DNA of 64,000 bases, from the NCBI RefSeq assembly GCF_023115465.1, contig NZ_CP096034.1:372001-436000 (forward strand). The letters are read 5' to 3'. Within the stretch, counting starts at the first letter, position 1. Every line of letters begins with the position of its first letter. The position numbers and the translations under genes were made by a program. Of this stretch, positions 19,070 through 46,155 are shown piece by piece. The notes under the pieces were generated by a model, which was given only the letters and a program-made list of their open reading frames with translations, was not told the DNA's origin and searched no databases. This DNA comes from Gottfriedia acidiceleris (GTDB lineage Bacteria > Bacillota > Bacilli > Bacillales > Bacillaceae_G).

Positions 19070-21202
19070 ATGTTATCAATAAATGAGAAACAAATAAGAC
19101 CAGTCATCACAATAGATATCGATCAATTTAAAGAAAATGATGAAATCGATTTATCCAATATAAATGAACCCTTTTTATTCTTACGTAAGCAAAACCAGAT
19201 TGTTGGTTATGTTCAATTAAATAATATTACTCAAAGTAGTAATAAAAAGAGAAGTATAGCATTCTCGAAGATTATTAGTTCTTCTCAATCGATAAATAGT
19301 GTTAGTCGCTTAAGTGAGCAAATTTCATTAACTACACTATTTCAAATTATTGGTGAACCAATCTCAATTGTAAAAGAAGAGGAAGAAATGCCAATTGGTT
19401 ACATACTTCGTGAAGATATATTAGCGGAGCTTTTTAAACAAGAAAATAAAAGTGTAGATTTATTAAAGAGCATTTTAACATCGATACCGATGGGAACATT
19501 TGTAGTAGATAAAAATAAAGTTATTGTAAATTGCAATGATGCTGGGTTGAAAATGATTAAATCAACATCAGAAAAAGTAATTAATACAAAAGCAGAAACT
19601 ATATTCAGCGGCGAACAAGTCGATAATGTATTTGCGACAGGTAAAACAATTCTTAATCAGATTCAAATTAGTGACGATATGGGTGTTCTTGTTGATTATA
19701 GCCCAATTTTCGTTGATAACGAGGTTGAAGGAGTTGTCATTGTCGTACAAGATCTCCCAATGGTTGAAGAAATGGCCTCCGAAATAGAATATGTAAAAGA
19801 TTTAAATAAAGATCTGAATGCCATTTTATCGAGTATTTATGATGAAATACTTGTAGTAAATCGCAAGGGTGAGCTAATCCGTTACAGTGAAAATATAATA
19901 CCTGGATTTTGGAATGTAGATTTAAAAGAACTACTTGGAAAGAGTATTTTAGAATTCGAAAACCAAGGACTTTTTACGCCATCAGTTACAAAACTAGTTT
20001 TAGAAAAAAAGAAGAAAGTCTCAATTGTTCAAGAAACAATTAATGGACGTAAAGTACTTGCGGTAGGAAATCCAGTTTTTGATGAGAATATGGAAATTGA
20101 ACGTATTATTATTGCTTCTAGGGATATTACAGAAACTTCACGACTTAAAACGGAATTAAAAGAAATGAAGAAGATTTCTGAGCAATATAAAAAGGAGCTT
20201 GAAGATATAAAGAGCAAGGATCGTTTTGTCAAAAAACTGATTTACTGTAGCCCAAAAATGGAGCAAATCATTAATCAAGCGAAAAAAATTGCTGATTTTT
20301 CTTCCACTGTGTTACTGCATGGAGAGTCTGGTGTAGGGAAGGAAGTAATTGCACAGGCTATTCATCAATTAGGAAACCGTTCTTCAAAACCGTTTTTAAA
20401 ATTAAACTGCGGTGCAATACCTGAAAATCTACTGGAAAGTGAGCTTTTTGGTTATATTAAAGGAGCGTTTACAGGAGCAGATCAAAATAAGGACGGCTAT
20501 TTTAAGCAAGCAGATGAAGGCGTTTTATTTTTAGATGAAATTGGTGAAATGCCATTACATTTACAAGTAAAACTGCTTAGAGTCCTTCAAGAACAAGAAG
20601 TAATTCCAGTCGGAAGTACAAAGCCAATTAAAGTAAATGTGCAAATTATTGCAGCTACAAATAAAAGATTAGAAAAAATGGTTGAAGAACGAACATTTAG
20701 GGAGGACTTGTATTATCGACTAAATGTAATACCTTTAAATATTCCACCATTAAGAGAAAGAATTGAAGATATCTCATTATTAGCTTTCCATTTTTTACAG
20801 CAATTAAATGAAAAGTATAATAAGAGTTTTCATCTTACTCCAGATGCAATTAACGTATTGGAATTTTATTCCTGGCCAGGGAATGTCAGAGAACTTCAAA
20901 ACATCATAGAAAGATTAGTCGTTTCTGCTGAAGATCAAATTATTAATGCAGAGGATGTTAATCAATTCTTACCAAATAGCTATGATTTTAATAAATCTAA
21001 ACCAGTTATTAATAAAGTAATTCCTCTACAAGAAGCGATTGACTATGTAGAGGAGCAACTCATTGTGCTTGCAATGAAGCAATATAAAACAACAACGAAG
21101 GCTGCGCAGGTTTTAGGCATTAGCCAGTCATCGGTTAGTCGTAAGTATCAAAAAATAATGAATGAAAAGAATATGAATAGTGACTTTATGTCATTTAAAT
21201 AA
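19070..21202 (+). CDS. Sigma-54-dependent activator with tandem PAS domains
   Basis: 710 residues. An N-terminal domain of about 125 residues that I cannot name (possibly CBS-like) is followed by two PAS domains (about 130-235 and 245-350), a short coiled coil (about 350-385), an AAA+ domain (about 395-630; Walker A GESGVGKE, GAFTGA present, Walker B LFLDEIGE) and a C-terminal Fis-type HTH (TKAAQVLGISQSSVSRKYQK). It lies between gdh and the aldehyde dehydrogenase gene, whose sigma-54 promoters and that of puuP share a repeat pair, so it is the best candidate regulator of all three. The ligand is unknown. Its stop codon runs directly into a terminator. Confidence 0.9.
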   Translation: MLSINEKQIRPVITIDIDQFKENDEIDLSNINEPFLFLRKQNQIVGYVQLNNITQSSNKKRSIAFSKIISSSQSINSVSRLSEQISLTTLFQIIGEPISIVKEEEEMPIGYILREDILAELFKQENKSVDLLKSILTSIPMGTFVVDKNKVIVNCNDAGLKMIKSTSEKVINTKAETIFSGEQVDNVFATGKTILNQIQISDDMGVLVDYSPIFVDNEVEGVVIVVQDLPMVEEMASEIEYVKDLNKDLNAILSSIYDEILVVNRKGELIRYSENIIPGFWNVDLKELLGKSILEFENQGLFTPSVTKLVLEKKKKVSIVQETINGRKVLAVGNPVFDENMEIERIIIASRDITETSRLKTELKEMKKISEQYKKELEDIKSKDRFVKKLIYCSPKMEQIINQAKKIADFSSTVLLHGESGVGKEVIAQAIHQLGNRSSKPFLKLNCGAIPENLLESELFGYIKGAFTGADQNKDGYFKQADEGVLFLDEIGEMPLHLQVKLLRVLQEQEVIPVGSTKPIKVNVQIIAATNKRLEKMVEERTFREDLYYRLNVIPLNIPPLRERIEDISLLAFHFLQQLNEKYNKSFHLTPDAINVLEFYSWPGNVRELQNIIERLVVSAEDQIINAEDVNQFLPNSYDFNKSKPVINKVIPLQEAIDYVEEQLIVLAMKQYKTTTKAAQVLGISQSSVSRKYQKIMNEKNMNSDFMSFK

Positions 21203-21229
21203 AAAAACGCACTGGGTGCGTTTTTTTAT
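21202..21229. terminator. Terminator, left member of a duplicated pair (MITE A)
   Basis: AAAAAACGCAC-TGG-GTGCGTTTTTT hairpin plus TAT. The same 28 bases recur at 21728-21755 on the other side of the repeat element, so this is the target-site duplication of that insertion. It ends the activator gene. Confidence 0.9.
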
Positions 21230-21727
21230 GCTGTTGAAAAACTACCTTGTCAATAAATTATCAAATTTTCGTAAAAGGAGTAGAGTGATGTTGATTTCCA
21301 CTACATGGTGCTCGCTTTCCATGGGGCGAGATTCTTTAGCCTCCTCGGCGAGCCTGCGGGGTCTCAGCCTTCCCGCTAATCCCATAGGAGTCGATCACCC
21401 CTCCGTTCCAATCAACTTATTCAATCAAAAAAAGTCTGCAATAAATACTAGTCAAATAGCCTTTACTTAGAGTAATCTAACTGTTGTATTTAATCAGCTT
21501 ATAGATCAATTAATATCGAAAAATTATTAAACTAAAAAATAGCCCATAATATTTTTAACTTCTAAAAAAATCATTACTAGTATTATTGGAAAATGGAATT
21601 GCTCAAACACATTTACATTTAAAATCAAAATCATTAAAAGCTATTCAAAAAATGCTAATTTTATCATTATTAAATGTTCATATAAAGTCCGTTTTCCCTA
21701 TTGACGACTTTATATTTTAACACTCTG
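21230..21727 (+). mobile_element. MITE-like repeat, copy A (full length, 498 bp)
   Basis: Starts GCTGTTGAAAAACTACC and ends TTAACACTCTG. The ends form an imperfect 23-base inverted repeat (TGTTGAAA-N9-GTCAAT; 17 of 23 match in the better-preserved copies). A GC-rich core of about 140 bases (about 21280-21420) is embedded in AT-rich arms. It codes for no transposase; the small frames in it are spurious. It is bounded by a perfect 28-base direct repeat that is an entire terminator. Related copies lie at 30564, 32191, 37740 and 45837. Confidence 0.85.
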
Positions 21728-21755
21728 AAAAAACGCACTGGGTGCGTTTTTTTAT
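21728..21755. terminator. Terminator, right member of a duplicated pair (MITE A)
   Basis: Identical to 21202-21229. It now serves the small minus-strand gene at 21752-21886, whose stop codon overlaps it. Before the insertion one bidirectional terminator presumably served both genes. Confidence 0.9.
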
Positions 21756-30518: not shown

Positions 30519-30535
30519 AATTAAATTCTAGTAAA

Positions 30536-30563
30536 AAGACTGTCCGTTAAAGACAGTCTTATT
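30536..30563. terminator. Terminator, left member of a duplicated pair (MITE B)
   Basis: AAGACTGTC-CGTTAAA-GACAGTCTT plus ATT; the same 28 bases recur at 30963-30990. It ends the putrescine/GABA operon. Confidence 0.9.
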
Positions 30564-30962
30564 CAGAGTGTTGAAATATAAAGTCGTCAATAGGGAAAAC
30601 GGACTTTAAATGTACATTTAATAATCATAAAATTAGCATTTTTTGAATGTTTAGTTTAATAATTGTTCGATATTAATTGATCTACAAGCTGATTAATATA
30701 CAACAGTTAGATTACTCTAAGTAAAGGCTATTTGACTTTTATTTATTGCAGACTTTTTTTGATTGAATAAGTTGATTGAAACGGAGGGGTGATCGACTCC
30801 TATGGGATTAGCGGGAAGGCTGAGACCCCGCAGGCTTGCCGAGGAGGCTCAGGTCTCGCCCCATGGAAAGCGAGCACTCTGTAGTGGAAATCAACATCAC
30901 TCTACTCCTTTTACGAAAATTTGATAATTAATTGACCAGGTAGTTTTTCAACAGCATGTAAT
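30564..30962 (-). mobile_element. MITE-like repeat, copy B (399 bp, inverted relative to A)
   Basis: Begins CAGAGTGTTGAAATATAAAG and ends TTTTTCAACAGCATGTAAT, so it is inserted in the opposite direction to copy A. It carries the GC-rich core (about 30775-30890) but lacks part of the AT-rich arm. It is flanked by a perfect 28-base direct repeat consisting of a whole terminator hairpin. Confidence 0.85.
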
Positions 30963-30990
30963 AAGACTGTCCGTTAAAGACAGTCTTATT
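30963..30990. terminator. Terminator, right member of a duplicated pair (MITE B)
   Basis: Identical to 30536-30563. It now lies four bases from the end of the convergent minus-strand gene at 30995-31345 and serves as its terminator. Confidence 0.9.
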
Positions 30991-32190: not shown

Positions 32191-32267
32191 TAGTGGAAAT
32201 CAACATCACTCTACTTCTTTTACGAAAATTTGATAATGAATTGACAAGGTAGTTTTTCAACAGCATG
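32191..32267 (-). mobile_element. MITE-like repeat, copy E (77-bp end fragment)
   Basis: Reads TAGTGGAAATCAACATCACT through TTTTTCAACAGCATG, the reverse of the left end of the element; core and right end are missing. It is again directly next to a terminator hairpin (32268-32301). Copy D breaks at almost the same internal point, suggesting a preferred deletion site. Confidence 0.8.
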
Positions 32268-32301
32268 TAAAAACGAATTCACATGGAATTCGTTTTTTTT
32301 T
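32268..32301. terminator. Terminator beside MITE copy E
   Basis: AAAAACGAATTC-ACATG-GAATTCGTTTTT hairpin, with a T-run on the plus strand and an A-run on the other side. It serves the HEAT-like gene and the convergent reductase gene. Confidence 0.85.
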
Positions 32302-37739: not shown

Positions 37740-38219
37740 GAAAAACAACCTTGTCAATTAAGTTATCAAATTTTCGTAAAAGGAGCAGAGTGATGTTGAT
37801 TTCCACTACAGGATGCTCGCTTTCCATGGGGCGAGACCTGAGCCTCCTCGGCAAGCCTGCGGAGTCTCAGCCTTCCCGCTTATCCCATAGGAGTCGAGCA
37901 TCCTTCCGTTCCAATCAACTTATTCAAACAAAAAAAGTCTGCAATAAATACTAGTCAAATAGCCTTTACTTTGAGTAACCTAACTGTTTTATATTAATCA
38001 GCTTGTAGCTCAATTAAATATCGAACATTAATTAAACTAAACAATTGAATTTGTTTTCTAAAAAAAGCTCATAATATTTTTAACTTCAAAAAAATCATTT
38101 CTAGTGTTATTGAAATAATGAAATTGCTCAAACATATTAAAAAATGCTAATTTTATCATTATCTAATGTTCAATTAAAGTCCGTTTTCCCTATTGACGAT
38201 TTTATATTTCAACACTCTG
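37740..38219 (+). mobile_element. MITE-like repeat, copy C (480 bp, left end damaged)
   Basis: Reads GAAAAACAACCTTGTCAATT through TTTCAACACTCTG, with the GC-rich core at about 37800-37920. The right end abuts a terminator as in the other copies, but the left terminal bases and the left copy of the terminator are missing, so this end was deleted or recombined. It lies directly upstream of the thiazole-peptide cluster. The 75-residue frame inside it is not a gene. Confidence 0.82.
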
Positions 38220-38250
38220 AAAAACCTCACTTTTTATGTGAGGTTTTTTT
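38220..38250. terminator. Terminator at the right end of MITE copy C
   Basis: AAAAACCTCAC-TTTTTA-GTGAGGTTTTT type hairpin with a T7 tail. Its expected twin on the left side of the element is absent. Confidence 0.8.
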
Positions 38251-45798: not shown

Positions 45799-45836
45799 AA
45801 AATGCATGTCCCATTAATATGAGACATGCATTTTTA
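45799..45836. terminator. Terminator, left member of a duplicated pair (MITE D)
   Basis: AAAATGCATGTC / GACATGCATTTT stem with a 12-base loop, plus TA; the same 38 bases recur at 46118-46155. Confidence 0.9.
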
Positions 45837-46117
45837 CGTTGTTGAAAAACAACCTTGTCAATTAATTATCAAATTTTCGTAAAAGGAGTAGAGTGATGTT
45901 GATTTCCATTACAATCGAATTTGTTTTCCTAAAAATAGCCCATCATATTTTTAACTTCTAAAAAAATCATTACTAGTAATATAATAAATAAAATCGCTCA
46001 AACACATTTACATTTAAAATCATTAAAAAATCATTTAAAAAATGCTAAATTCATCATTATGAAATGTTCATTTAAAGTCCGTTTTCCCTTTTGACGTCTT
46101 TATATTTCAACACTCTG
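45837..46117 (+). mobile_element. MITE-like repeat, copy D (281 bp, core deleted)
   Basis: Begins CGTTGTTGAAAAACAACC and ends TTCAACACTCTG, keeping both terminal repeats, but the GC-rich core is missing (break at about 45913, after GATGTTGATTTCCATTACA). It is flanked by a perfect 38-base direct repeat made of a whole terminator. That a core-less copy is still precisely bordered suggests the ends suffice for transposition, or that the deletion came later. Confidence 0.85.
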
Positions 46118-46155
46118 AAAATGCATGTCCCATTAATATGAGACATGCATTTTTA
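46118..46155. terminator. Terminator, right member of a duplicated pair (MITE D)
   Basis: Identical to 45799-45836; it now lies on the side of the convergent HTH-TPR regulator gene. Confidence 0.9.

Follow-up and report, generated by a model that had tools for sequence, protein, structure and literature searches.

MITEs in the genome of Gottfriedia acidiceleris duplicate a complete transcription terminator hairpin when they insert, and the existence of such elements, together with a branch of the IS1182 family that duplicates hairpins in the same way, is well supported as a real and general feature of these genomes. We find that these elements are very probably MITEs of an IS1182 subgroup whose ends are joined at both 5' feet of a hairpin, with gap repair then duplicating that hairpin. 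The length of a target-site duplication is normally constant for a given transposase, set by the unchanging distance between its two active sites when these act on duplex DNA; a duplication of 17–42 bp that varies with the target hairpin makes recognition of a cruciform or junction by a DDE transposase directly testable.

MITE copies and their flanking hairpins

The window analysed here, a stretch of 64,000 bp that spans bases 372001–436000 of a 4.69 Mb contig, holds five copies of the element, A to E (Table 1). The coordinates that the initial annotation gave for copies A, B and D and for their flanking direct repeats are right, as is its view of the element as a MITE: copies A and D are short (501 and 283 bp), have no transposase gene, and end in sequences common to an autonomous element. 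The reading frames over copy A encode 96 (with a start outside the copy), 47 and 44 aa, and an Rfam search over copy A gives four matches only, every one under its gathering level. Copy A is flanked by 28 identical bases (21202–21229 and 21728–21755), of which 25 bp make up the hairpin itself; copy B is likewise flanked by 28 identical bases, or by 31 bp if one difference is allowed, and copy D by 38, of which the hairpin makes up 36. At the truncated copies C and E each surviving end adjoins a single hairpin, and DNA folding z-scores range from −5.6 to −7.2 for these single hairpins and the first hairpins of A, B and D. The core found in copy A is missing from copy D, so that the ends may be able to move without it.

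Table 1. Features of the MITE copies, with positions in the window, and loci of the loop-type IS1182 elements
Feature	Position	Strand	Remarks
Copy A, hairpin copy 1	21202..21226		25 bp; identity continues to 21229
Copy A, MITE	21227..21727	+	begins TATGCTGTTG, terminates AACACTCTG
Copy A, structured conserved core	21285..21420	+	repeat also in other genera of the order
Copy A, hairpin copy 2	21728..21752		identity continues to 21755
Copy B, hairpin copy 1	30533..30563		1 difference from copy 2
Copy B, MITE, reverse orientation	30564..30958	-	
Copy B, hairpin copy 2	30960..30990		
Copy C, truncated, only left end left	32191..32267	-	
Hairpin adjoining copy C	32269..32297		
Copy E, MITE without outermost left end	37740..38219	+	
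Hairpin adjoining right end of copy E	38220..38248		
Copy D, hairpin copy 1	45799..45834		36 bp; identity continues to 45836
Copy D, short MITE without core	45835..46117	+	
Copy D, hairpin copy 2	46118..46153		identity continues to 46155
Loop-type IS1182 elements	loci L031-L036 and most of L100-L179		ends GAGG[CG]CACTGAAAAA

With copy A as the query, the G. acidiceleris genome returns at least 46 matches (40 of 195 first-look candidates scored), and a search with the left-end pattern returns 44. The stretches retrieved contain 48 recognisable left ends and 41 right ends, which form 39 left/right pairs, six of them with a nested IS, and leave 11 ends unpaired. With element bounds placed from three bases ahead of GCTGTTG through the end of CTCTG, 36 of the 39 pairs are flanked by an anchored direct repeat of 19–37 bp that is a complete hairpin, perfect in 24, which bears out the proposal that insertion duplicates a whole terminator. 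The further proposal that repeat length follows the hairpin also holds: all 36 repeats contain a hairpin, and its axis falls within 0.5 base of the repeat centre in 33. Repeat and palindrome length correlate at 0.97 among the MITEs, a value inflated by taking the palindrome inside the repeat. The remaining three pairs have diverged or displaced hairpin copies, with the same hairpin on both sides but an insertion or deletion at L033 and L025, and the second hairpin displaced by ≈30 bp at L002; ordinary short repeats away from hairpins, named in the initial annotation as a counter-case, occur at none of the 39.

The three bases ahead of GCTGTTG are CAT in 28 pairs, CAC in four, TAC in four and others in three, and the opposite MITE end is usually CTCTG. 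This conserved CAT-type start and usual CTCTG end indicate that the duplicated unit is the hairpin, and that the extra bases of the direct repeats are the first bases of the element plus chance identity. The two or three bases that the duplicate was said to include beyond the 3' base of the stem therefore belong for the most part to the element's own terminus and not to the target. A looser test, which asks for any flush hairpin of 15–50 bp at both feet together with a repeat, is passed by 28 of the 39 pairs; so many single positions drawn at random from these AT-rich loci have a flush hairpin of this kind (2,650 of 30,960, or 8.6%) that the test is weak alone.

In 35 of the 39 pairs a reading frame of at least 80 codons runs towards the element and has its stop codon within 200 bp of it, on one side or on both. 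Whole-hairpin duplication would be a gentle mode of insertion, beside gene ends and with a terminator retained on both sides. The left-end strand counts of one half of the contig (16+/9−) resemble those of the other (14+/9−), on a contig with origin and terminus unmapped, and this lends no support to a lagging-strand, single-strand route.

Four of eight chosen perfect-repeat copies, from the 39 elements in all, were searched in 13 genomes of the genus, G. acidiceleris included, and 29 relatives' loci, a part of all matches, were compared over ≈70 bp aligned on each side. A single hairpin is present in 26 of the 29 and the hairpin is missing in one (L322); the other two (in G003 and G008) carry a MITE end of their own at the terminator that is occupied in L006, one in each orientation, and G008 has the second hairpin copy as well. 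The terminator at L006 (also L294 and L323) has been struck by MITEs in three species and in both orientations.

These single hairpins show that at the four sites the duplication arrived with the insertion, and they weigh on two other ways of arriving at flanking hairpins. Tandem terminators do occur in bacteria, and an element might have inserted between two pre-existing ones without duplicating any target, which is the other counter-case that had been named; two tandem terminators are found at the empty sites of none of the four loci compared among the 39, which rules this out there, and the flanking repeats are perfectly identical in 24 of the 39 pairs while their sequences differ from site to site, so that we consider this explanation hardly credible. 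Even less credence can be given to the idea that terminator-like ends of the element itself make the flanking hairpins. In some relatives, as judged by eye, a T-run does follow palindromic ends, but here the ends are conserved and the flanking hairpins are not the same from one copy to the next, and a hairpin already present at empty sites contradicts the idea directly.

The probable partner transposase and the whole-hairpin group

A congener (G011) carries an autonomous IS1182-family element (L187/L216) that has MITE-like ends and a whole-hairpin repeat, and this agrees with the initial annotation's suggestion that an IS1182-type element is the source of the transposase. The element at L187 (L187:1373-2908, 1,536 bp) has a single transposase gene between terminal inverted repeats; its long frame encodes 454 aa from an inner ATG, and a 490-aa version begins just outside the element. 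The L187/L216 transposase scores 291.3 bits against NF033551, for which the cut-off is 270, and matches Pfam DUF772 and DDE_Tnp_1_6 over their cut-offs. Its inverted repeat is TGTTGAAAAA..GTCAA, the two ends reading CACGCTGTTGAAAAA and CAGAGTGTTGAAAAA with GTCAA after each, and the terminal sequences common to MITE and autonomous element are CA(T/C)GCTGTTGAAAAA and CAGAGTGTTGAAA, each then followed by GTCAA. The whole-hairpin repeat of L187/L216 is also in keeping with the palindrome targeting of some IS1182 members, and an element of this type is likely the partner of the MITE. A second, broken partner copy in G002 has different hairpins at its two ends.

The initial annotation also called for an autonomous element with the same ends in the G. 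acidiceleris genome itself, and here the outcome is negative. A search with the IS1182 model (15 of 15 candidates scored) gives six intact loop-type copies plus fragments and no transposase whose ends match, an inward end pair of transposon length is absent from ten solo-end or odd stretches of this genome, and the reading frames of L204–L207, around solo or odd left ends, include no IS1182 transposase; the partner-protein search across the order scored 4 of 14 candidates in this genome. The six intact transposases are rejected as autonomous partners, as all are nested in the MITE core and have other ends. The proposed IS1182 source stands for the family, and the IS1182 transposases of this genome belong to another group, nested in the core and flanked by 8-bp repeats. 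A search by sequence among solved structures returns no credible relative. A broken IS1182-like transposase of another kind lies at G000:C1:3586953-3588166 (L037–L039).

Used as a query across the order, the partner protein has matches in 169 of 397 genomes, a count that takes in any related transposase, the loop group included. The whole-hairpin group comprises 71 loci, made up of 30 from the order-wide search, 40 further copies and L180; some genomes contribute several copies, and the loci are not independent. Ends are recognised by pattern in 54 loci, with a repeat of 17–42 bp in 50 and none in four. In 48 of 51 rows, among which one locus appears twice, the repeat is centred on a hairpin axis. 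Flush closure with at least six pairs is found for 46 of the 50 repeats, as compared with 215 of 99,917 random segments of matched lengths. A test that does not depend on the ends, in which an exact repeat, 15 bp long or longer, must hold a hairpin of at least six pairs, is passed by 55 of 67 usable loci (two contig-edge and two partial loci of the group being left out) and by 0 of 80 usable loci, from 86, in the loop group. Among the 12 whole-hairpin loci that fail, five have another repeat, for which the anchored test mostly gives diverged or nested hairpins, and seven have none; at L254 and L255 the end-free repeats are longer, non-hairpin, and set in flanks that are alike, and the anchored test finds a hairpin in both. 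The end pattern recovers an inward pair in 54 of 70 loci and misses 14 loci of the group (13 from the order-wide search, and L180), with whole-hairpin repeats present in the missed loci L230, L231, L237, L240 and L242.

Copies of one element within one genome differ in repeat length, with repeats of 19, 20, 21 and 23 bp in G251 and of 19, 22, 27 and 28 bp in G265. In the order-wide group repeat and palindrome lengths correlate at only 0.66, and at 35 of 50 loci the rebuilt palindrome exceeds the repeat by 2–6 pairs. Of 100 feet, 94% have an A as the outermost base of the repeat, with A-tracts preceding. This preference, taken with repeats that stop short, indicates that the cut often falls at the border of A-tract and stem and that the sequence of the foot matters too. 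By eye, several relatives among L222–L245 have ends that are palindromes followed by a T-run, as though an element may bring its own terminators.

The conserved core and loop-type IS1182 elements

Other genera carry the core (GTTGATTTCC...CCAATCAAC) without MITE ends. Copy A has matches in 35 of 60 genomes and in 22 of 45 genera, and beyond the genus these are to the core only, among the matches listed. An alignment of 16 core sequences supports one long structure of 39 pairs, 15 of them with double-sided changes. At L087, in another genus, the outer ends around the core appear by eye to be different ones (GGCTG...CAGCC), accompanied by an AT-rich repeat that is short; it looks as if several MITE families carry the core.

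All six intact IS1182 transposases of the G. acidiceleris genome are 496-codon frames within the MITE core, in both orientations, and are flanked by the 8-bp repeat GGCNNGCC, with element ends GAGGCCACTGAAAAA. We define the loop group as these six plus 80 of 163 relatives of the nested IS; membership of IS1182 by NF033551 was tested on L032. Ends and enough flank are available for 63, of which 57 have a repeat of at least 6 bp, and the repeat is 8 or 9 bp in 55 of these. With the six G. acidiceleris copies left out, 23 of 50 repeats of 7–9 bp are centred on the axis of a strong hairpin, versus 70 of 15,000 positions picked at random; the remaining 27 are below the strong-hairpin threshold. The inward end pair of the whole-hairpin group, sought with both end patterns in the 80 loop-group loci, is found in none; L111 has a looser end pair, which falls within its transposase gene. 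The MITE core looks like a recurrent landing pad for loop-type IS1182: the same core region is occupied by the six copies here, by L135 in Sutcliffiella horikoshii and by L145 in Bacillus infantis.

A quick tree of 83 proteins places 29 of 29 whole-hairpin rows and 45 of 45 loop rows on opposite sides of a split that has full SH-aLRT support and long branches, with eight repeat-less rows and one odd row spread across both sides. Repeat type follows the transposase tree. The tree consists of relatives of two queries only, with IS1272 absent, and because two different queries found the groups it shows association and not the number of origins.

Target recognition and relation to known systems

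The evidence from pairs, empty sites and partner supports a scheme, which we hold very probable, in which the MITEs belong to an IS1182-family subgroup with ends CANNNTGTNGANAAA, whose transposase would join the two 3' ends of the element to the two 5' feet of the hairpin on opposite strands, with gap repair leaving a full hairpin on either side of the element. Our best inference is that the enzyme recognises the folded hairpin. On grounds of geometry and symmetry, the terminator hairpin would be extruded as a cruciform at the moment of attack, and this could explain both the variable stagger and the symmetry about the axis: the 5' feet are neighbours in a four-way junction at any arm length, so that a synaptic complex of fixed geometry on such a junction could make staggers of 17–42 bp. 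The preference for A at the feet and the repeats that end 2–6 pairs short of the longest stem argue against a purely structural rule. We see about an even chance for a wider reading, in which the whole IS1182 branch with its MITEs would encode a junction-directed integrase whose true target is no sequence but the four-way junction where an extruded terminator hairpin meets its flanks; the structure of that target would set the stagger and with it the duplication, and the insertions would re-create two insulating terminators.

The strong A preference at the feet also suits an enzyme that binds duplex DNA with no extrusion, reading an A-tract plus a symmetric stem, with two subunits that nick by sequence at the A-tract borders; the fixed 8–9 bp repeats of the loop group are likewise a normal stagger on duplex. 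A change of stagger from copy to copy within one genome, as in G251 and G265, is hard to obtain from a fixed complex on a linear duplex, and we regard duplex binding as possible but unlikely. More doubtful still is movement of the MITE in trans by the nested loop-type transposase, even though this is the only intact IS1182 type found in the G. acidiceleris genome (six copies) and a short motif, TGAAAAA, is common to loop-type ends and the MITE left end. Insertions of this type, in this genome and in relatives, give repeats of 8–9 bp, and the MITE ends match the other group, whose inward pair is absent from all 80 loop-group loci.

Hairpins matter for transposition in IS200/IS605 elements and REP-associated tyrosine transposases, as they do here, but those are HUH enzymes, the hairpin lies in the element, and no target is duplicated. 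For certain IS1182 members the IS databases give repeats that are long and palindromic, and specialists may therefore partly expect whole-hairpin duplication. In a search of titles and abstract openings, carried out largely outside the subscription literature and the principal IS reviews, no IS or MITE is described as duplicating a whole terminator, and excerpts of a review of prokaryotic MITEs make no mention of IS1182 (PMC10969869).

Hairpin targeting by IS1182 relatives is already published. For IS1272 and TnSha1, members of this family in staphylococci, passages in two papers (PMC5678879, PMC4923244) describe hairpin targets that include several terminators and have no primary sequence in common, and cite Siguier et al. 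for palindrome targeting by some IS1182 members. IS1272 and TnSha1 replace or partly delete the hairpin, with no target duplication, as these passages have it (targeting with partial deletion in Furi et al. 2016, PMC4923244), whereas the elements here duplicate the whole hairpin; the outcome of the IS1272 type, loss of the target hairpin without duplication, is not seen among our pairs, 36 of 39 having a hairpin on both sides. For IS1272, Wan et al. 2017 (PMC5678879) propose a replacement path and, in text and model figure, draw two alternatives, joining at the 5' feet, which would duplicate the whole stem-loop, and joining at the loop, which would duplicate the loop. Pathway b of that figure predicts exactly the product found here; in those passages whole stem-loop duplication is a hypothetical path for which no element is named. 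Our data match both alternatives as drawn there, foot joining and loop joining. Three outcomes would then occur within one family, duplication of the loop, duplication of the whole hairpin, and replacement of the hairpin as published for IS1272. The loop-type elements, of the same family by NF033551, resemble the MITE group in that many insertions fall on a hairpin axis, and differ from it in their fixed 8–9 bp repeat, with six copies lodged in the MITE core itself.
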